Positions 2,597-19,731 of a DNA stretch of 41,257 nucleotides are shown piece after piece. Both the position numbers and the translations under genes were made by a program. The DNA comes from Desulfurivibrio sp. GTDB lineage: Bacteria; Desulfobacterota; Desulfobulbia; Desulfobulbales; Desulfurivibrionaceae. Every line of letters starts with the position of its first letter. The stretch's first letter is position 1. The notes under the pieces were generated by a model. The model searched no databases and had not been told where the DNA came from. It saw only the letters and a list, made by a program, of their open reading frames with translations. The stretch is from NCBI GenBank assembly GCA_013791995.1, contig VMSS01000065.1:1-41257 (forward strand). The letters run 5' to 3'.

Positions 2597-2602
2597 TATA
2601 AT
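2597..2602 (+). promoter_or_regulatory. Probable -10 of the Slam-like/FecR/CHASE2 operon
   Basis: A perfect TATAAT, 60 bases before the ATG at 2662, preceded by an A/T-rich tract (T7 then A9 around 2558-2575) that could act as an UP element. The -35 is poor. It is the only promoter-like sequence found upstream of the three-gene plus-strand unit. Confidence 0.45.
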
Positions 2603-2646
2603 TGATACATCCTATCAAGATTTTCCGCCTTATATTGGCCACTCCC

Positions 2647-2655
2647 GGGGGGGGG
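2647..2655 (+). promoter_or_regulatory. Nine-G tract acting as ribosome-binding site
   Basis: A run of nine G lies six bases before the ATG at 2662, exactly where a Shine-Dalgarno sequence should be, and no other candidate is present. Homopolymers of this length are prone to slippage, so tract length could tune or switch translation of the outer-membrane protein. Confidence 0.55.
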
Positions 2656-2661
2656 ACCGTC

Positions 2662-3990
2662 ATGACACAATTGAAATTTGTCGTTGTTGTATTGCTTGCT
2701 CTGCACCTCTCCTTCGCCCAAGCCATGGCTGCGGAAGAGGTACCCGCCTCTTTCTCCGTGGGCAAGCAATATTTTGACCAGGGAAAATTCGAAGAGGCCT
2801 ATACGGAACTCCACAAGGCCTTTCGTCAGGACCCCGGCAATCAGGAAATCAATTTTTACCTTGGCCGGGCCGCTTTTGAATCCGGCCGCTTCGAAGAGGC
2901 GGTCATGGCCTTTGACCGCATCCTCATTGCCAACCCCGATGCTTCCCGCGCCAAACTGGAACTGGCCCGCGCCCATCTCCGCCTTGGCTCCCGAGAGCTG
3001 GCAAAACAGTACTTCAAGGAAGTACAGGCCACCAACCCTCCGGAACAGGTCTGGAAAAACATCCAACAATTTTTGGATATTATCACCGCATCGGAACAAC
3101 GTCATTTCCTGAATGGCCTTTTCACCTTCGGGGTCAGCCATGACGACAACGTCAACGTGGCCCCCTCGGAAGGCAACGTCAATATCGACTTTGGCGGCAT
3201 CACCCTGCCTATTACCATCGATCAGCAAGCAATCAGCGATCAGATTTACAACACCACCCTGGTGGCCAACCACATCTATAAATTCGAAGACCGTCCCTAC
3301 ACCTGGAAAACAACGGCGGTCAACTACAACGCTTTCTACGAAAACCAGAACATCCACGACATCAACTATCTGAGCTTGGCCTCCGGACCTGTCTTCCAAG
3401 GGAAGAATTACCTCTGGCAGGTTCAGGGCCAAATTAACAATGTCGATCTCGAATATGACCGTTATCAGAGTGCCTACGGCTTAAGCTCGACCCTGACCTG
3501 GCTGGTGGACCAAACTATCCTGCTCAACGCCGGCGTCACGGCACAGCAAAAAAACAACTATCAGGACGGGGACCAGGATGCGGACAACTTTCTGATTATC
3601 GCCGGTCCGGTATTCACCCTTGGCCTGAACCGGGTTACCCTTTCTTTTGGCAAGGAATTTGAGAACGCCGCCCATGACTACAACAGTTATGACCGTTTCA
3701 TGGTGCTGGCCCGGTATGATCGCCAATTACCCCTTGATTTCGGGTTTTTTGCCAGCTTCCGCTTTCAGAACACTGAATATGACAAAACCGACTCGCTCTA
3801 TATCAGCAACCGTTCCGATGATGTCCTTGATCTCTCCTGCGGTCTGTCAAAACGGTTATGGCAAACAGAGGACAAGCGGCGCAGCCTTTCCGGTCAGATC
3901 AGCTATACGAACACAAAGGCAGAATCCAACATCGCCCTCTATGAATATGATAAAAATGTAACCGCAGCCGAGCTAACCTTTGCCTTTTAA
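2662..3990 (+). CDS. Slam-like TPR / outer-membrane beta-barrel protein (DUF560-type)
   Basis: A 442-residue exported protein. It has a signal peptide (about residues 1-23, cleavage near AMA/AEE), then TPR-like helices (about 30-130, with FDQGKFEEAYTEL and GRFEEAVMAFDRIL), then a strand-rich region from about 150 to the end with alternating polar and hydrophobic residues and a C-terminal phenylalanine, the usual outer-membrane insertion signal. The barrel opens with GVSHDDNVNVAP, resembling the start of the DUF560 domain in surface lipoprotein assembly modulators (Slam), which move TbpB-type proteins to the cell surface. Total length is close to that of Neisseria Slam. ATG at 2662 is preferred over an in-frame codon at 2602 because the signal peptide begins here. 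The downstream FecR protein is its probable client (inference). Confidence 0.75.
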   Translation: MTQLKFVVVVLLALHLSFAQAMAAEEVPASFSVGKQYFDQGKFEEAYTELHKAFRQDPGNQEINFYLGRAAFESGRFEEAVMAFDRILIANPDASRAKLELARAHLRLGSRELAKQYFKEVQATNPPEQVWKNIQQFLDIITASEQRHFLNGLFTFGVSHDDNVNVAPSEGNVNIDFGGITLPITIDQQAISDQIYNTTLVANHIYKFEDRPYTWKTTAVNYNAFYENQNIHDINYLSLASGPVFQGKNYLWQVQGQINNVDLEYDRYQSAYGLSSTLTWLVDQTILLNAGVTAQQKNNYQDGDQDADNFLIIAGPVFTLGLNRVTLSFGKEFENAAHDYNSYDRFMVLARYDRQLPLDFGFFASFRFQNTEYDKTDSLYISNRSDDVLDLSCGLSKRLWQTEDKRRSLSGQISYTNTKAESNIALYEYDKNVTAAELTFAF

Positions 3991-4076
3991 CCGCCGTAAA
4001 AACGACTACACAGATTAAGGCCATGACCGCCGTAATCAAGACCAGCCGTGCCCGTGCTTTTCCAGGAGGATCGCGA

Positions 4077-6701
4077 ATGAAACATTCCATCACCGGCTCC
4101 CTCTTTCTCGGTTTTTTTGCAGTCCTCCTGACTTGCTCGACGGCGTACGCTGCAACCACGGTTGCCACCGTGGTTGCGATCCGCGGCAACGTCCAAGCCT
4201 TGAATGCTCAGGGCAAAAGCCGCGCGCTCGCTATTCAGTCCGCGATTTTCGAGGATGAAACCCTCCAGACCGGTGAACGCAGCCGGGTGCAGATCATGTT
4301 CTCCGACAACACCCTGATCAACCTCGGCAATGCAACAACCATGAAAATCGCCGAATACCGCTACCAGCCTGAGCAGAAAGATGGCGCTCTCAAAACCCAG
4401 ATCAAGGAAGGCACCTTCCGGATCATGGGCGGTGCCCTAGCCAAGACCGCCCCCCAAAACTTCAAGACCGAGACCCCCACAGCAACCATCGGTATCCGTG
4501 GCTCCATGTACGCCGGGCTCGTGACTCCAGATTTTCTCTCGGTTGTGTTCCAGGGCGGCAAGGGTATTGACATAACCAACGCCTTTGGCACCGTGGAAAT
4601 CACAAAACCCGGCTACGGCACCAAGGTGGCCTTGAACAAACCGCCGGTGCCGCCGATAAAATTCACAACGAAGGAACTGGGCGAATTGAACAAAGCCCTG
4701 GGTGGCAACGGCGCTGAAGAAAATGGAGAGGACAAGGAAAACGGCTCCGCTCCCAAGGAAGAACCGGGTAGCACTACAGGTCCGACAGATGATGACAAAG
4801 CCAGCTTGGGCGGCGGAGAGACAGTAACCACCCCCTTCCCCACTGTCCTCCCAATCATTCCCCCCGTACCGGATGACATAAAAAAGGATGTGGTTGTAAA
4901 AAAATCACAAACCGACTTGGTCACCACGGCAAGCATCACAGCAGACAGCACGGTGCCCAACAGTACTGCGCTTATTGGCAAATACCGCATTATTCTTCGG
5001 GATATCGATCTTGCCCTCAGCAACCCATCGAATTTTAATTCAACCTTCCTCTTATGGGATAGCGGCACGGTGAATGCCACCATTTTCAGTAACGGTACGC
5101 TTCAAGCCTCTTCCGTTACCGACGGTACTTCTTCTGCCCCGTTATCAGGCTTCCCCACCTCTTTTGGCCCATACACCTTCACGAACTATACCCCGGCAGC
5201 AACAAGTTATAGCGGTTTCACCTCGTTTACAGACACGTTCAGCTATAATGAGCCTGACGCGGGCCTTCTTACTCTGACCGTTACCAATTATGTGGAGCCA
5301 TCCGGACAATTTTTCTATAATACTACCCTTTTTGCCATCGACTTAGCCCCTCCCGATTACGATTTGCTCCTCGCCTCGCTGGTGTACGCTGGTATTCCGT
5401 CCGGAGGCATTCCCACTACGGGCATCGACAAATTCACCGGCCACCTGATCTACGACTCTCCCACGTCGCTGGACGGAAACTTGGAAGAAACCAGAACCGT
5501 GGTCAACTACTACAACAAACGGTTCATCGGCCGCTCCTCTGACAAAATGTTTCAAGATTTTGGCCGCGGCGGGGCCGTGTTTTTTGGTTCTCTGGCTGCG
5601 GACGGCACCGCCGCTGTCACCATCCTGGCTGGCGGTGATCCCTATGGAAACGATGTTACTGCTGCCTTCAGTAATACTGCCACCGCCACCCTTTACGGCA
5701 GCTTCCAGCAGGGCCTCGCTTTTACAGCCTCCGGCCATGACTACTCCATCATCAACAACACGGAAACCAGCTCCTGGGATGCTACCGGCGCTGCCATGCG
5801 TAGCCCGACCCGTGATTACATCTCCTATCCGACTTCCCCCATTGCCTATACAGGATTTCTCATAGGCGTGGGCGACGACACCTTCGATGGATCAATACAT
5901 CGCATTATTATGAATACCACATCCACCGACTTCGCCATGTCCGTAAACCCAACCACTGGGGTGCTTAGCGGCGCTATCAACAACCTGAATGACCTCATCG
6001 CCATTGAAAATGAACAGTCACCAGTTATCATGCCCACCCTTACTATAGGCGGCAGCGCAGCCTATTCCGCTTATGTAGCGAACGACAACATGGTAGCTAT
6101 TCTTTCCGGCGACTCCCTTAAGGATTACGGCAACTTTCTGGTTACCGCCGGTCCTGACGCCCCGGTAATCACCAACGTTTCCAACGATTTTATGACTTGG
6201 GGATACTGGGAAATAGCCTACGATGACCCTTCTGAAAGCAATGATCACCTGTTCAGCTCGCAATCCTTCTTTGTTGCCGGGCAACAAACTCTTATCACAG
6301 AGGTTAACTCCCTCATCACTTCCAGTTCCTCCGGCACTTACACTGGCAAGGCTTTTGGCATACAAATAGACTCCAATGGTCACAACACCCAACTTACTTC
6401 ATCGTCTGGCGCAAACCTTTGGGGCACTGTCAACCTGGGTATCAACTTTGCTGCCGCCGCCACGACTTCAGTCAACGGGGTCATTAACTTTGACCAGGCG
6501 GTCCTGAGCATTAATTCAGGGACGCCCGTTCTGCCGAGCGGCTTCTCAGCCGAGGTCTCCACTGTATCGGGCGCAGTCCCTCTTTCAAGTTCAGTCAACG
6601 GCGCCTTCTTCGGTTCTGACGCCGCTGCGATAGGCGGCAACTTCCAAGCTCGGATGAATGACGGTGTTCGTTATCTTGGCATCTTCGGCGGGAATCGCTA
6701 A
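4077..6701 (+). CDS. Exported FecR-domain protein with TbpB-like C-terminus
   Basis: An 874-residue exported protein. The signal peptide ends near AYA at about residue 25. C20 lies in LLTC, a poor lipobox, so lipidation is doubtful. A FecR domain spans about 28-175 (IRGNVQ, TLQTGERSRVQIMFSDNT, TATIGIRGSMY). An acidic Gly/Pro/Glu linker follows (about 200-250), then about 600 residues rich in Ser, Thr, Asn and Gly, with beta-strand patterning. The end carries VNGAFFGSDAAAIGGNF (840-856) and finishes GIFGGNR, closely like the last strands of TbpB/Slam-substrate barrels, where FYGPxAxExGGxF is typical. The start has AGGAGG seven bases upstream. It lies 86 bases after the Slam-like gene and 24 before the cyclase gene. 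The FecR assignment is firm; the TbpB-like reading is by motif only. The ligand is unknown. Confidence 0.8.
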   Translation: MKHSITGSLFLGFFAVLLTCSTAYAATTVATVVAIRGNVQALNAQGKSRALAIQSAIFEDETLQTGERSRVQIMFSDNTLINLGNATTMKIAEYRYQPEQKDGALKTQIKEGTFRIMGGALAKTAPQNFKTETPTATIGIRGSMYAGLVTPDFLSVVFQGGKGIDITNAFGTVEITKPGYGTKVALNKPPVPPIKFTTKELGELNKALGGNGAEENGEDKENGSAPKEEPGSTTGPTDDDKASLGGGETVTTPFPTVLPIIPPVPDDIKKDVVVKKSQTDLVTTASITADSTVPNSTALIGKYRIILRDIDLALSNPSNFNSTFLLWDSGTVNATIFSNGTLQASSVTDGTSSAPLSGFPTSFGPYTFTNYTPAATSYSGFTSFTDTFSYNEPDAGLLTLTVTNYVEPSGQFFYNTTLFAIDLAPPDYDLLLASLVYAGIPSGGIPTTGIDKFTGHLIYDSPTSLDGNLEETRTVVNYYNKRFIGRSSDKMFQDFGRGGAVFFGSLAADGTAAVTILAGGDPYGNDVTAAFSNTATATLYGSFQQGLAFTASGHDYSIINNTETSSWDATGAAMRSPTRDYISYPTSPIAYTGFLIGVGDDTFDGSIHRIIMNTTSTDFAMSVNPTTGVLSGAINNLNDLIAIENEQSPVIMPTLTIGGSAAYSAYVANDNMVAILSGDSLKDYGNFLVTAGPDAPVITNVSNDFMTWGYWEIAYDDPSESNDHLFSSQSFFVAGQQTLITEVNSLITSSSSGTYTGKAFGIQIDSNGHNTQLTSSSGANLWGTVNLGINFAAAATTSVNGVINFDQAVLSINSGTPVLPSGFSAEVSTVSGAVPLSSSVNGAFFGSDAAAIGGNFQARMNDGVRYLGIFGGNR

Positions 6702-6725
6702 CAACAAGGGAAACAACGCCAAGAG

Positions 6726-8972
6726 ATGATACAATCCTCCCGACTCAAGGCGTTCTTCACCCTTAGCCCCTTCAAGGTCGGCTGCCTGGTAACCCTGGCA
6801 GCCGTCCTGCTGTTCGCCTCCTTTGGCCTGCAAAAACCGGATATCCTCAAAACCCTGGATAACCGGCTCACCGACACCATGTACCGCTGGCGTGGCACGG
6901 TCACCCCCTCCCAGCCCATCGTTATTGTCGATATCGATGAAAAAAGCCTGCGGGCCATTGGCCAATGGCCGTGGCCGCGCGACACCGTGGCGCGGATGAT
7001 TCAAAACCTGAGCGGTGGCGGAGCAAAGGTTATCGGCATGGATATTGTCTTTGCCGAACCGGACCGCACCTCACCTAAAAACTTTGTTGATGAGTTGCAG
7101 AAACTTCTGCCGGCGCAACTCACGCCGGAAATGCTGACGGAGCTAAAAGCCAACGAGGCTCTGGATCATGATCTGGCTCTTGGCAAAGCCCTGGCAGTAA
7201 CCCCCTCTGTTCTGGGCTACGTCTTCCAGACCCAGGATGACGGCCTGAAAAACCAGGCGGATATCCCTTTTCCTTCCGGCATTACCCGCTTGGTGCCCGA
7301 CACCATTTCCTATGAGAATATATCACTTATTCGAGCGTACCGGGCCATCACCAACGTCACCACAGTCGCCCAGAGCCAGAGCGAAGGTTTTTTCAATGTG
7401 TTCCCCGACAATGCCGGCACAGTGCGCAGGGTTCCGCTTTTCATGATGATGGACAACGTCCCGTACCCGTCCCTGCCCCTTGAAATGGCACGTATCGGCA
7501 TGGGACATCCGGGGGCGACCATCCATGTGTCCAGGCAGAAAAAAACCTTCCCCAAAGACATACTCGGAATCGAACTGGGCACAACCTTTATCCCTACCGA
7601 TGAAAAAGGCCAGCTCACCGTCAATTTCAGGGGGCCGGGACAGACCTATCCCTACCTTTCCGCCATGGACATCCTGGCAGGAAAAAACCTCGATCAGGTA
7701 AATGGAAAATATGTTCTTATCGGCACCTCCGCCGCGGGCCTCCTCGACCTGCGGGCCACGCCTTTTTCCAACATCTATCCGGGAGTGGAGGTGCATGCCA
7801 CCATCATCGACAACATCCTCACCGGCGACCCTTTCACCCATGACATCTTCACCGAAATCGGCATCACCTACGCCCTGCTTCTGGTCGGCGGTATCGGTTT
7901 ATCCGCGCTGCTTGTCTATGCCACCCCCCTGGCCGGCGGGCTTGGCGGAGTGCTGCTTTTCCTGGCTACCGTGGCGGGAAATTACTTTTTATTTTTCAGC
8001 CGCAACCAACTCCTTGGCCTCTCCTATCCGCTCCTGACCGTCCTGGTGATTTTCCTCGTTGTCACCCTGTTCAATTACTTTTTCGAAGGCCAGAAAAAAA
8101 GGTTCATCAGCACGGCCTTTGGCCATTATGTTTCCCCGGAGATTGTGCACCAGCTTCTGGAGCATCCGGAAAAACTCTCCCTGCGCGGAGAGCAGAAAAA
8201 CCTCACCGTGCTTTTCAGCGACATCAAAGGGTTCACCTCCATCTCCGAAAAAATGACCTCCGAAGAGCTGGGCCTGTTCATGAACGAGTATCTCACTGCC
8301 ATGAGCCGTATCGTACTGGAAGGCAAGGGAACCGTTGACAAATTCATCGGCGACGCTATCATGGCCATCTGGGGCGCGCCCCTTGACGATGATGACCACG
8401 CGGCCAACTGTGTCCGGGCGGCGTTCAGGATGACCAAGAAACTCGAGGAGTTACGGGCGGACTGGCAGAAACGGGGACTGCCCGGAGTTGATATCCGCAT
8501 CGGCATCAACACCGGAATTATGAGCGTGGGAAACTTCGGCAGCGATCAACGCTTTGACTACACGGTCATGGGAGACAACGTCAATCTGGCCTCCCGGCTG
8601 GAAGGCTCGAACAAAACCTACGGCACCGGCATCATCATCTCGGAATACACCAAGGCCGCGCTGGGAGACCGATTTTACTGCCGGGTTCTCGATCTGGTTC
8701 GGGTCAAGGGCAAGGATGTGCCGGTGCGCATATATGAGCCTCTCTGCGAGGGCGAGCCGGAGACGGAACTGAAAAAGGAAACAGAGGCGTTTGGCGAGGC
8801 CCTGCAACTGTATACAAACCGCGAATTTCAGGAAGCCGAGAAAATCATCCTCGCGCTCAACAAAAACAGGGAGCTGCCGCTTTACGATCTTTACCTCGAC
8901 CGTATCGCTCATTTTGCGGCCAATCCGCCACCTGATGACTGGGACGGGGCATTCACATTTACCACCAAGTAA
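6726..8972 (+). CDS. CHASE2-domain class III adenylate cyclase
   Basis: A 748-residue inner-membrane sensor cyclase. A first membrane helix (about 18-36) leads to a CHASE2 sensory domain on the periplasmic side (about 45-370, with IVIVDIDEKSLRAIGQWPWPR), three helices (about 378-452), and a cytoplasmic class III cyclase domain (about 490-670). The two metal-binding aspartates are D499 (FSDIKGFT) and D543 (FIGDAIMAIWG), 44 residues apart as usual. K539 and the VNLASR motif supply substrate and catalytic positions, so the enzyme should be active and make cAMP from ATP. About 80 helical residues follow. It is the last gene of a unit with the Slam-like barrel and the FecR protein, which may pass an envelope signal to CHASE2 (inference). 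A weak GGGAAAC precedes the ATG. Confidence 0.93.
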   Translation: MIQSSRLKAFFTLSPFKVGCLVTLAAVLLFASFGLQKPDILKTLDNRLTDTMYRWRGTVTPSQPIVIVDIDEKSLRAIGQWPWPRDTVARMIQNLSGGGAKVIGMDIVFAEPDRTSPKNFVDELQKLLPAQLTPEMLTELKANEALDHDLALGKALAVTPSVLGYVFQTQDDGLKNQADIPFPSGITRLVPDTISYENISLIRAYRAITNVTTVAQSQSEGFFNVFPDNAGTVRRVPLFMMMDNVPYPSLPLEMARIGMGHPGATIHVSRQKKTFPKDILGIELGTTFIPTDEKGQLTVNFRGPGQTYPYLSAMDILAGKNLDQVNGKYVLIGTSAAGLLDLRATPFSNIYPGVEVHATIIDNILTGDPFTHDIFTEIGITYALLLVGGIGLSALLVYATPLAGGLGGVLLFLATVAGNYFLFFSRNQLLGLSYPLLTVLVIFLVVTLFNYFFEGQKKRFISTAFGHYVSPEIVHQLLEHPEKLSLRGEQKNLTVLFSDIKGFTSISEKMTSEELGLFMNEYLTAMSRIVLEGKGTVDKFIGDAIMAIWGAPLDDDDHAANCVRAAFRMTKKLEELRADWQKRGLPGVDIRIGINTGIMSVGNFGSDQRFDYTVMGDNVNLASRLEGSNKTYGTGIIISEYTKAALGDRFYCRVLDLVRVKGKDVPVRIYEPLCEGEPETELKKETEAFGEALQLYTNREFQEAEKIILALNKNRELPLYDLYLDRIAHFAANPPPDDWDGAFTFTTK

Positions 8973-8982
8973 CCGGCAAGTT

Positions 8983-9134
8983 ACAACAACCCTTCGACAG
9001 GCTCAGGGTGAACGGAAATTTCTTAATAAACTGACATTCAGCTCATGCTCAGTGCTTCGACAGGCTCAGCACGAACGGAATATCGATAGAATAATACAAC
9101 TTCGTTCGCCCTGAGCCTGTCGAAGGGTTGTTGT
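8983..9134. repeat. Three-unit palindromic repeat cluster with 32-bp inverted arms
   Basis: The arms 8983-9014 and 9103-9134 are inverted copies matching at 31 of 32 positions by eye, and a third unit sits between them at 9052-9078. Each unit contains CTTCGACAGGCTCAG or its complement. The whole could fold as one long hairpin in the cyclase/trxB intergenic region and may serve as a transcription end or an mRNA-stabilising structure. No other content is seen in this gap. Confidence 0.8.
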
Positions 9135-10206: not shown

Positions 10207-10245
10207 AACAGCGTTATTCGCTGCAAAAAAATCCTGCCCGGAGTT

Positions 10246-10272
10246 CCGTTCATCCTGAGCCTGTCGAAGGGC
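10246..10272. repeat. Palindromic repeat unit
   Basis: One copy with core CCTGAGCCTGTCGAAGG, in the convergent gap between trxB and the rhomboid gene. The short arms CC and GG pair, as in the other copies. Confidence 0.75.
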
Positions 10273-10334
10273 GGTTCACATAGCGTTACAGAAAAGCCGA
10301 AACCTGACGAAACACTTCCATCCCCCCGGCTGCA

Positions 10335-15940: not shown

Positions 15941-17329
15941 TTAAGCGGCCATCCGCACCAGATTGCGACCCGCATGCTTGGCCGCATACAACGCTTTGTC
16001 CGCACGTTTGATCAGCCCATCCATGCTTTCCCCTGGTAGACAGCCGGCAAGTCCACAGCTGATGGTGACCCCAAGCGGCAAGTTTTCCACCTGTTGCCGC
16101 AATTTTTCGGCAATACTGATCGCATCAGTAGCCACAATTCCCGGACAGAGCACCATAAATTCCTCACCGCCCCACCGCCCCAGCGCATCAGTAGCCCGGA
16201 TCTGCCCACCCACCGTAGCGGCAACTTCCCTCAACACCTGATCTCCAATAGTATGCCCGAGGCTGTCGTTTATATCCTTAAAACGGTCAAGGTCAAAAAG
16301 GATAATTGTCAGTGGGCTTCCATAGCGGCTTGATCTGGCGATTTCCTGCTTTAGAAATTCCTCGATCTTGCCGCGATTGTAGATTCCGGTGAGAGCATCG
16401 GTGGTGGCCAGCCGGGTGAGCTCCTCTTCCATGTTTTTTCGCTCGGTAAGATCATGCAAGGTTTCGATGACCGCGATAAGTTCTTTGTCGCGGTTGTATA
16501 TAGGTACGGCATCGCAGGACAGATAACGGCGCACTCCACCCACAGCATCCAGCCATTCCTCCGCGTGAATGCCCTCCTCCAAGCCTTCAGAATTTTGGAC
16601 TACGCTGTACAAGGCTGCGATCTTACGCCGCTCAGCGGAATTAATGACAAGATCGGCCAGACAGGATTGTTTTTCCCGGTAAAAGGCCTGCCAGTGATTC
16701 GTTGTGCCCACGATCTGCCCGGCAGGGATGCCGGTGAGCATCTCGCAAGCCCGATTCCAATCGGTAACCCTGTGCTGCGAATCCAGCACAAAAATAGGCA
16801 CTGCGGAGTAGCGGATCAATTTTTCAGTAAACAGCTTCTGATCCCGCAGGAGATCTTCCGCCTCCTTCCGGTGGCTGAGATCACGAAAAATTCCCCTGGT
16901 CGCCACCAGTTCGCCGTCCTTAAAGTCCGTACTGATTTTTCCTTCCACCGGAATCTTGCGGCCGCTCTTGGCAACAAAAACCACCTCGTATGTATGTGAG
17001 ATCTTGCCGGCAGCGATGTCCCGAAACAGAGTGGCGCAATTCTCCCGGCAATCAGGATCAAGAATATCAAAAATGGAAAGCGCACCAATCTCGGCATCAT
17101 CGTATCCCAGAGTTTCCCGCCACGCCTTGTTGACATAGAGAAACCTTCCAGACCGGTCGATGCTCTGGATCAAATCATTGGCGCAATCGAGGAAAATCTG
17201 GGAAAAACGGCTTCCGGAAAGAAAGCCTATTTCCTCCCGCTGCCGATGCACATGCTCATTTTCGAAAAACGGCTGTGTGCGATTCGTCACCTCGACTTCC
17301 GTTGGATACTGTAAATCCTTATCGTTCAA
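15941..17329 (-). CDS. PAS-PAS-GGEEF diguanylate cyclase (soluble)
   Basis: A 462-residue predicted cytoplasmic enzyme making c-di-GMP from two GTP. Two PAS domains (about 41-160 and 165-285) precede a GGDEF domain (about 295-460). The active-site motif is GGEEF at 387-391, and the product-inhibition site RxxD is present (R378, D381), so it should be active and feedback-controlled. The PAS2 and GGDEF parts closely resemble the gene at 17635-19524 (shared NHWQAF/DHWQAF, YSAVPIFVL, DAVPIYNR), showing a duplication. Start is TTG at 17329 with GGCGG six bases upstream; no ATG occurs near the N-terminus, and the frame closes at 17381. No HAMP domain, EAL domain or membrane helix is seen. Confidence 0.9.
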   Translation of the reverse strand: MNDKDLQYPTEVEVTNRTQPFFENEHVHRQREEIGFLSGSRFSQIFLDCANDLIQSIDRSGRFLYVNKAWRETLGYDDAEIGALSIFDILDPDCRENCATLFRDIAAGKISHTYEVVFVAKSGRKIPVEGKISTDFKDGELVATRGIFRDLSHRKEAEDLLRDQKLFTEKLIRYSAVPIFVLDSQHRVTDWNRACEMLTGIPAGQIVGTTNHWQAFYREKQSCLADLVINSAERRKIAALYSVVQNSEGLEEGIHAEEWLDAVGGVRRYLSCDAVPIYNRDKELIAVIETLHDLTERKNMEEELTRLATTDALTGIYNRGKIEEFLKQEIARSSRYGSPLTIILFDLDRFKDINDSLGHTIGDQVLREVAATVGGQIRATDALGRWGGEEFMVLCPGIVATDAISIAEKLRQQVENLPLGVTISCGLAGCLPGESMDGLIKRADKALYAAKHAGRNLVRMAA

Positions 17330-17634
17330 AAAAAGCCGCCTTATCTTTGAAATTGCTCCGGTTTGTTTTACCGTAGCACCTTACTACTTTTAATTAAACC
17401 CTTAAACACTTTTTTCAGCTGTAGCTTCTTTATTTTTGGGAAATCCACCAGGATCTAACTCTCCGTTTTTCTTGGGTATACTTGACAGATTACGAAAGCC
17501 TGCCACAGAGCAAAAGCTCTTTTGTTTTGAGCAATATGGCAAAAGAAACAGGAATTTTTCCGAAAGGATCTTTGCGTTCAAAAGAAAAGATTTACGGAAC
17601 AAATGCGACAAAAAAATCAGGCGGAATTCACTGC
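17330..17634. other. Spacer between the two diguanylate cyclase genes
   Basis: A 305-base AT-rich interval. Short frames occur on both strands (for example 17402-17611 minus, 69 codons), but none has recognisable motifs or a convincing ribosome-binding site. It presumably holds the promoter of the downstream cyclase. No hairpin with a T run was found. Confidence 0.5.
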
Positions 17635-19524
17635 TCAGATAATCTCAACGATATTTCTTCCCTTGTCCTTGGCTCTGTACAATCCTTCATCCGCCCTGCT
17701 GACAAAAGCATCCACCGAATCGTGGGGCTTGAAACAGGTCACCCCGCAACTGACGGTAATGGTCTTTACGGTTTCAAAGATATGTTTCTCCACTGTTTCC
17801 CGCAATTTCTCGGCAATGACCAGCACATCCTTTTCCGTGGCTTCCGGGCAGAGGACCAGAAATTCCTCGCCGCCCCAGCGTCCGACCCAGTCCGACGTCC
17901 GGACATTTTCACGGATAACCTTGGCCACAGCCTGCAACACCTGATCGCCAACCGCGTGACCGTATGTGTCATTAATTTTTTTAAAATGATCCAGATCAAA
18001 CATGATCAGGGAGAGCGGAGTATTATAACGTTTGGCCCGATCCACCTCCTGTTGCAGAAGCTCGTTGAATCGATGCCGGTTGCACAGTCCGGTGAGGGCA
18101 TCGGTGGTGGCCAGCCGCTCCAAATCCTCTTCCATTTTTTTTCTCTCGCTTATATCCTGCAAGGTTTCAATGGCCGCAACAAGTTCATTGGCTCTGTTGT
18201 AGATAGGCACGGCATCGAAAGCAAGATAGCGTTTTATTCCGCCGATATTATCGAACCACCCCTCGGAACGGACCCCTTCCTCCATAAAGGCAGAATTTTC
18301 AAACGCCTCATAAAACTGAGGAAGCGAACCATATGCCTCGTCAAGCACCAGATCGGCAAGGCAGTCCCGCTTGCTGGGATAAAAAGCCTGCCAGTGATCG
18401 CTGGTGCCGACAATTTTCTCCGCCGGGATGCCGGTCATTTTTTCACAGGCCTTGTTCCAGCTCGTAACCTCGTGATTCTTGTTTAGAACAAAAATCGGCA
18501 CCGCTGAATACCTGAGAATTTTTTCCGTAAAGTTCTTCTGTTCCAAAAACCGCTCTTCAAGCTGTTTCCGCTTGGTGATATCTCTAAATATGCCACGCAC
18601 CGCGACCGGCGTGCCCTCCTCCATCTGGGTGGTGATGCTTCCTTCAACAACTATGGTTTTCCCGCTCTTGGTGACAAAAAGGAGTTCATGCTCCACGACC
18701 TGAGAAATTCTGCTGATGGAACTGAACAACCCAAGGGAGCTTTTCCGGGAATCCTTGTGCAAAATATCATGGATGCTCATACTCCCGATCTCTGCCTCGT
18801 CATAACCCAAAACCCTTTGCCAGGCGCGATTGACATAGAGAAATTGCCCGTTCAAACCAAGAATCTGAATAAGGTCATTGGCGTTATCGAGGAAATTCTG
18901 CAAATTCGCTTCACTTCTCCTCAGTGCATCCTCTGCCACCTTTCGCTGGGTTATATCCACTGATGATTCGATCATCTGGACAATGTTGCCGGATTCGTCA
19001 AAAATCGGGTAACCATGCACCTCCATGACCCGTTGAGCGCCTTGCCGATTATAGTGGAGATGCTCGAGAACCACCGGTTTGCCGGTTTTTTTCACTTCGA
19101 CCATGGGGCAGGGATGTTCGCCCCCCTCACAGGGGGTCGTACTTTTATGGGAAAGGGCGTGACAGGTGAGATCTCCGGCTTCATTTGTTCCCGCAGCCCT
19201 GTTGATGATCTTCACCCGATAATCGTGGGCGTCGATCACATAAAAAGGGAATGGCAACGCGTCAAGCACGGTGTGCAAAAAACTGTTCTGTCTCGCAATT
19301 TCCTGCCTTTCACGATTGCATTCCTCGGTTTTCTCAAGCATGGGCCGGTAGGAGAGAAAAAACCACAGCGGTAAGACCAGACAGGTGAGAAATATCCCGT
19401 CCGCCAGAGCAGCGGTGCGGGGGGGCAGATTTGGGAAGAAGGTAAGAAGACGAGAAATGGCGAGTTCAGCCAGAAAAATCAAACCAAGGACAACAACAAG
19501 AATACGAGCCGGTGACTTTTTCAT
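17635..19524 (-). CDS. Membrane-anchored multi-PAS GGEEF diguanylate cyclase
   Basis: A 629-residue inner-membrane protein. Two hydrophobic helices (about 6-28 and 38-60) are followed by three PAS-like domains and a GGDEF domain ending at the C-terminus. The first PAS contains three cysteines (CHALSH, PCEGGEHPC), which in related sensors can bind a cofactor or sense redox state; that is speculative here. The active site GGEEF is at 551-555 with an RTSD inhibition site nine residues before it. The last two PAS domains and the cyclase domain are paralogous to the next gene. The start is uncertain: ATG 19524 has AGGGA about eight bases upstream; ATG 19551 and TTG 19731 are in frame. It follows coaE closely. 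Confidence 0.88.
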   Translation of the reverse strand: MKKSPARILVVVLGLIFLAELAISRLLTFFPNLPPRTAALADGIFLTCLVLPLWFFLSYRPMLEKTEECNRERQEIARQNSFLHTVLDALPFPFYVIDAHDYRVKIINRAAGTNEAGDLTCHALSHKSTTPCEGGEHPCPMVEVKKTGKPVVLEHLHYNRQGAQRVMEVHGYPIFDESGNIVQMIESSVDITQRKVAEDALRRSEANLQNFLDNANDLIQILGLNGQFLYVNRAWQRVLGYDEAEIGSMSIHDILHKDSRKSSLGLFSSISRISQVVEHELLFVTKSGKTIVVEGSITTQMEEGTPVAVRGIFRDITKRKQLEERFLEQKNFTEKILRYSAVPIFVLNKNHEVTSWNKACEKMTGIPAEKIVGTSDHWQAFYPSKRDCLADLVLDEAYGSLPQFYEAFENSAFMEEGVRSEGWFDNIGGIKRYLAFDAVPIYNRANELVAAIETLQDISERKKMEEDLERLATTDALTGLCNRHRFNELLQQEVDRAKRYNTPLSLIMFDLDHFKKINDTYGHAVGDQVLQAVAKVIRENVRTSDWVGRWGGEEFLVLCPEATEKDVLVIAEKLRETVEKHIFETVKTITVSCGVTCFKPHDSVDAFVSRADEGLYRAKDKGRNIVEII

Positions 19525-19731
19525 CCTCGGTGTCCCTGAGAAGTAATCCATCTTTCCAGAAAAAGGATTATCCAAGCCGACTTCCTCGCGCAAAAACGAT
19601 AAGATGTTCAAGATTCTGAAGCTTGCGATACACAGGATCCCGTTCTTTCCTGGGGTCACTTTTCTCCGGAAGAAGAAAAGTAATCCAATACCGATTCCAC
19701 TACAAAATAATTTACAGGCGGAAACAGTCAA

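Follow-up and report, generated by a model that had tools for sequence, protein, structure and literature searches.

A Slam-type outer-membrane protein, a FecR–TbpB chimera and a CHASE2 adenylate cyclase encoded in a conserved cassette: a candidate trans-envelope cAMP signalling unit

Introduction

Within the 41,257-nucleotide stretch of Desulfurivibrio sp. DNA analysed here (the window), three genes follow one another on the same strand between positions 2662 and 8972, with intergenic gaps of 86 and 24 nt. They encode a Slam/T11SS-type outer-membrane protein, an exported protein that combines a FecR domain with a TbpB-type C terminus, and a CHASE2 class III adenylate cyclase. The question raised by this locus is whether the three proteins work as a single unit that reports the state of the cell surface through cAMP, as proposed in a preliminary description of the DNA, and, if so, by what arrangement the signal would pass the two membranes. 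Given the short gaps, co-transcription with the cyclase is probable.

Results and Discussion

Architecture of the Cassette

The coordinates and reading frames that had been assigned to the TPR/DUF560 barrel, the FecR protein, and the CHASE2 cyclase, all on one strand, are correct, and the Pfam matches agree with them. The gene of the Slam/T11SS-type outer-membrane protein (2662..3990, + strand) starts at an ATG at position 2662, yielding 442 residues, or at a TTG at position 2602, yielding 462. Its product comprises a Sec signal, N-terminal TPRs (TPR_19, 69.4 bits; TPR_Slam, 28.1 bits, which is below its own cut-off of 35.2), and a SlipAM (DUF560) barrel (PF04575, 28.5 bits, Pfam cut-off 22). 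SlipAM is also matched by 24 of the 25 homologues.

The second gene (4077..6701, + strand), with AGGAGG located 5' of its ATG, encodes an exported protein of 874 residues with an N-terminal FecR domain (PF04773, 33.2 bits, cut-off 24), just as had been claimed. Since it also matches TbpB_B_D, it is referred to here as the FecR–TbpB chimera, a putative client of Slam and a candidate for envelope signalling. Its Sec signal peptide is of the non-lipidated type, with no lipobox found in it. The FecR domain (residues ~28–195; 4158..4661, + strand) is the most conserved part of the chain and is followed by a Pro/acid-rich linker (residues ~196–285; 4662..4931, + strand), which varies from 36 to 173 residues among homologues and is only 25% identical. 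A pre-barrel region with a W-G-Y-W motif (residues ~661–748; 6057..6320, + strand), found to be conserved by comparison of homologues, leads to the C-terminal TbpB_B_D domain of the eight-strand-barrel type (residues ~749–874; 6321..6698, + strand). Full-length relatives of the chimera are present in the order. A match to the LapA retention module (NF033682) reached 36.2 bits, below the cut-off of 50, and was taken as a similarity of FecR-like folds only.

The third gene (6726..8972, + strand) encodes the CHASE2 class III adenylate cyclase of 748 residues (CHASE2, 214.7 bits; cyclase domain, 90.5 bits in Pfam). According to hydropathy, a transmembrane segment at residues ~9–37 precedes the CHASE2 domain, which is followed by transmembrane segments at ~374–455 and by the cyclase domain at ~490–664. 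The catalytic residues, described previously as intact, are Asp499, Lys539, Asp543, Thr613, Asn620, and Arg624, and all six are invariant in 33 homologues. The Lys–Thr pair suggests ATP as the predicted substrate.

The Desulfurivibrio genome contains one match each for SlipAM, TbpB_B_D, FecR, and CHASE2, all of them within the cassette, as well as one further class III cyclase and eight cNMP-binding domains. Upstream of the cassette, the opposite strand encodes a heavy-metal P-type ATPase with HMA domains (1–1698, − strand), and ORFs sharing its MHCA(A/S)CS start are found upstream in two other genomes (G384 and G378; loci L088 and L124). A dispersed palindromic repeat, CTTCGACAGGCTCAG..GAACGGAA, is present at positions 8985–9132 and 10244–10276, the copies located 3' of the cyclase forming a 73-nt inverted repeat that is 77% complementary. 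The same window also carries two adjoining genes of PAS-GGDEF diguanylate cyclases (15941–19731, − strand).

The TbpB-Type C-Terminal Domain

At the extreme C terminus of the chimera, TbpB_B_D (PF01298) scores 26.9 bits against a cut-off of 26. As this single score is marginal, the domain was tested across the family rather than in one protein. All 29 homologous C termini, 29–60% identical to that of the window, match TbpB_B_D, and seven of them match FHBP_C as well. When the profile of the C-terminal part was compared with the sequences in the PDB, the leading matches were TbpB (E 4e-13), LbpB, NHBA/GNA2132, hemophilin, and factor H binding protein (fHbp), that is, established clients of Slam/T11SS or proteins close to them in structure; other proteins gave three marginal matches only, with E > 0.5. 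Two motifs stand out as conserved, W-G-x-W ahead of the barrel and, closing it, GxFxGPxAxxxGGxF...YxGIFGGNR, the latter represented in the window by GAFFGSDAAAIGGNF...YLGIFGGNR. The TbpB-type C terminus claimed in the preliminary description is thus confirmed, with a change of extent: residues 600–874 had been proposed as the barrel, and it is the C-terminal ~125 residues (about 749–874) that match TbpB_B_D, the stretch before them being the pre-barrel region.

The eight-strand barrel is predicted at the level of profiles, not of models. AlphaFold2 run with a two-sequence input gave pLDDT values of 27.2 for residues 269–874 and 36.1 for the last 132 residues, making these models unfit for fold searches. 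A C-terminal fold with no eight-strand barrel had been named beforehand as evidence against the unit; the profile matches to TbpB-type proteins of solved structure point away from such a fold. The NCBIfam family slam_lipo (NF041636) matches all 29 C termini, the window protein scoring 35.5 bits, below the cut-off of 80. This score and the lack of a lipobox exclude the chimera only from the class of surface lipoproteins. Non-lipidated cargo of T11SS exists, hemophilin being an example.

Conservation of the Triad

The C-terminal part of the chimera was searched for in 258 genomes of the order, irrespective of neighboring genes, and the homologous loci were checked by tblastn and six-frame HMM scans. 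It was found in 39 of these genomes, with the loci examined in 37. A CHASE2 cyclase lies directly downstream on the same strand in 36 of the 37, and a Slam gene lies directly upstream, also on the same strand, in each of the 32 genomes with enough contig. The exception is G412, in which a Slam gene and a chimera of 2128 residues have no adjoining cyclase. What looked like a fusion of FecR and CHASE2 in a single gene (G383, locus L125) is due to a run of N bridging a gap in the scaffold.

Of the 122 FecR matches in 198 genomes surveyed across the phylum, 36 have a CHASE2 match no more than 3 kb away, where random placement predicts 0.43; for SlipAM, 13 of 24 matches have FecR within 3 kb, against 0.07 expected. 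Co-occurrence no greater than chance had been named beforehand as evidence that would speak against the unit; both the synteny and the phylum counts place the genes together beyond chance. Many FecR proteins in the phylum survey are small, end in Pro-rich or acidic tails, and have no TbpB domain. FecR–CHASE2 is thus a general pair that is often joined by Slam-like TPR-barrels, the TbpB-type client being one version. An unfused arrangement of the parts of the cassette is seen in one genome (G025, locus L112, 1982–10688), where one strand bears a FecR–CHASE2 pair and the other a Slam gene together with a gene for a TbpB-domain protein standing on its own.

A tree of 53 Slam proteins places all 31 chimera-linked Slams of the order in one clade (support 99/99), separate from ordinary Slams, the clients of which are without FecR. 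The latter occur in the same order and phylum (L116, L130–L133, and L135), and no cyclase was found at these six loci on the available sequence, some stretches of which are short. Two genomes (G392 and G421) contain both kinds of Slam. Since the chimera-linked Slams form their own clade and the ordinary loci show no cyclase on that sequence, FecR and the cyclase evidently travel with a particular Slam lineage. Taken together, profiles, synteny, and phylogeny strongly support the identity of the parts, the TbpB-type C terminus, and a functional link among the three genes.

The triad recurs on plasmids of Shinella and Paracoccus, in which the gene order is a TPR-barrel protein, one or more FecR-linker-barrel proteins, and a CHASE2 cyclase. 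The alignment of the Shinella TPR-barrel protein with the Slam family spans 382 columns at a probability of 99.5%, and the FecR-linker-barrel proteins of both genera match the C-terminal profile with a probability of 94%; in Pfam, their TbpB_B_D scores are 15.9 and 22.1 bits, both below the cut-off of 26. They carry the WGxW motif and barrel ends reading GVFAGSR or GIFGGGR, with the linker in Paracoccus being a long GPTGPTDPT repeat. On plasmids of Ensifer and Shinella (L103 and L139), FecR/CHASE2 cyclase genes adjoin those of an NHLP-type peptide export ABC transporter, which suggests another export-linked use of the pair.

Constant and Variable Parts of the Chimera

The mean pairwise identity is 58% for the FecR domain and 56% for CHASE2; it is 25% for the linker, 31% for the middle region, and 37% for the barrel. 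At three loci (L081, L083, and L084), two chimeras or two Slam–chimera pairs precede one cyclase, and the tandem chimeras are 78–88% identical in the FecR part and 32–53% in the rest. Their identity at fourfold sites is 64–69% in the FecR part versus 32–41%. This higher identity at silent sites means that the likeness of the FecR parts may be owed in part to gene conversion or passenger exchange. The pattern suggests that the constant FecR part would serve a constant partner, CHASE2, and that the variable part would be the antenna. Giant FecR chimeras also exist (2128 residues in L085, 4006–10392; 2052 residues in L098, 4195–10353), with extra weak matches to the barrel profile inside them (three in L098, 60–132 bits), as if the antenna had been multiplied.

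Proposed Mechanism and Alternatives

On balance, the evidence leans slightly toward the cassette being a three-protein trans-envelope signalling unit composed of Slam, a dedicated FecR–TbpB client, and a CHASE2 cyclase. That the chimera is the dedicated client of this Slam is suggested by their unique pairing and the clade-specific coupling, and the Slam-type protein is predicted to carry it across the outer membrane. Slam would move the C-terminal barrel and the middle region of the client up to, or across, the outer membrane, where they would act as a variable antenna, and the N-terminal FecR domain would remain periplasmic, tied to the antenna by the flexible linker. In the periplasm, the FecR domain might contact or release the CHASE2 domain and so set the cAMP output of the cyclase, with cAMP then acting through one or more of the eight cNMP-binding proteins.

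In a client without a lipobox, full translocation would release the FecR domain together with the rest of the chain. The simplest way to combine surface exposure with contact to CHASE2 would be for the FecR end to hold the client in a membrane-spanning position. We can speculate, quite tentatively, that Slam holds the non-lipidated client half-way, with the barrel and antenna outside, the linker running through the pore, and FecR in the periplasm. One client would then span the outer membrane and drive the CHASE2 cyclase, a secretion system having been turned into a topological device, and the exchange of passengers attached to an invariant FecR domain would change the ligand.

The strongest rival takes the TPR-SlipAM protein itself as the outer-membrane receptor, on which the C terminus of the chimera docks from the periplasm, the signal passing from FecR to CHASE2 with no translocation. 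It owes its standing to the pairing of TPR-barrels also with FecR proteins that have no TbpB domain. In one genome of the same order (G411), as well as in other families of the phylum, a Slam-like gene is accompanied by barrel-less FecR proteins with a tail that is Pro-rich or acidic, so that the TPR-barrel may serve FecR otherwise than by translocation; such proteins without a TbpB domain are found at many Slam–FecR–CHASE2 loci. NsrA of Sinorhizobium meliloti, discussed below, unites FecR, TPRs, and a barrel in one chain. In the clade of the window, however, a TbpB-type barrel, the known relatives of which are carried by Slams, invariably accompanies the Slam gene. An hhalign comparison of the Slam family with NsrA, made with a single sequence, aligned only the TPRs and not the barrel, which may be a further point against this arrangement. 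We regard this receptor arrangement as unlikely for the cassette.

Less probable still is that the cyclase watches over secretion, a jammed or saturated Slam causing the client to build up in the periplasm, where its FecR domain would gain access to CHASE2, making cAMP a signal of export status rather than of an outside ligand. Such surveillance would account for the non-lipidated client, for the dedicated one-to-one pair of Slam and client, and for the probable co-transcription with the cyclase; the diversification of the middle region and barrel between tandem copies and between genomes nevertheless suits ligand sensing better, and ligand sensing is also the precedent set by NsrA. Plain T11SS secretion, in which the chimera is a secreted or surface client with an odd N-terminal domain and the cyclase an unlinked operon neighbor, fits the other Slam clients of the order, which have other N-terminal parts and no cyclase, but is very improbable in view of the cyclase following the chimera in all but one of the examined genomes and of a FecR–CHASE2 adjacency far above chance also without Slam.

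Under the signalling reading, the triad looks like a device leading from a surface sensor to cAMP, kept across an order of sediment bacteria and recurring in distant Alphaproteobacteria. It links the question of the FecR/CHASE2 ligand, and of how a signal passes two membranes, to the Slam/T11SS field, and the prediction follows that one class of Slam clients acts as receptors, not as adhesins or metal scavengers. A chain with both FecR and TbpB_B_D, encoded next to SlipAM and CHASE2, provides a marker for searches in other phyla, and the cAMP readout offers a simple genetic test of the triad.

Comparison with Known Systems

The preliminary description knew of no described pathway of this form, a statement that was too strong, as two systems precede the cassette. 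In Sinorhizobium meliloti, the response to an extracellular protein through cAMP depends on both nsrA and cyaK (PMC7529298, PMC13001267). CyaK comprises CHASE2 and a cyclase domain, and the protein encoded beside cyaK has 1190 residues, with FecR at 66–160, TPRs at 378–587, and the remaining 600 residues as a barrel part. We take this adjoining gene to be nsrA; its length, together with the description of the NsrA barrel at residues 600–1200, supports the assignment. NsrA–CyaK, acting with CyaD1/D2 and Clr, resembles the cassette in that a class III cyclase with CHASE2 is paired with FecR, TPRs, and a barrel in the outer membrane. It differs in that NsrA is one chain, with no TbpB-type client and no Slam gene, and its barrel was not recognised as SlipAM. 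The likeness is one of synteny only, a FecR envelope protein being linked to a CHASE2 cyclase and Slam forming a separate barrel. The cassette would work as NsrA–CyaK does, but with Slam and its client as the outer-membrane part in place of a barrel fused to FecR. In Methylocystis and Rhizobium, too, CHASE2 cyclase genes come after genes for NsrA-like FecR proteins, here of ~1215 residues. In Rhizobium BG4, a gene annotated as a Pycsar effector family protein (L143, 666–1205) flanks the NsrA-like gene, and in S. meliloti a DUF5706 gene (L102, 1588–2133) occupies the matching place.

The second precedent is found in Campylobacterota, where the genes of CHASE2 cyclases are grouped with those of FecR, TPR, and phosphodiesterase proteins, and where all of these have been proposed to form one pathway (PMC9239204). 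This cluster differs from the cassette by its phosphodiesterase, and its parts were not described there as being of the Slam or TbpB type.

The FecA–FecR–FecI system has in common with the cassette the FecR domain family PF04773. In the cassette, however, FecR is carried by an exported protein rather than by an inner-membrane anti-sigma factor, and the output is a cyclase. Neither a FecI-type sigma factor nor a FecA-type or TonB-dependent receptor was found beside the cassette, the neighbors being the P-type ATPase and a thioredoxin-reductase-like gene.

Slam/T11SS loci with TbpB-type cargo (PMC5449769, PMC8406197, PMC12282271) share with the cassette a TPR and DUF560/SlipAM protein beside a client with a C-terminal eight-strand barrel. 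The client of the cassette differs by its N-terminal FecR domain and by the lack of a lipobox, and the locus by its CHASE2 cyclase; the main text of these three papers mentions neither FecR nor a cyclase, and no paper naming both "FecR domain" and "surface lipoprotein assembly modifier" was found among the open-licence papers searched. The type of pathway is thus already known, and the new element would be a Slam/T11SS client serving as the surface or outer-membrane input of FecR–CHASE2 signalling to cAMP.
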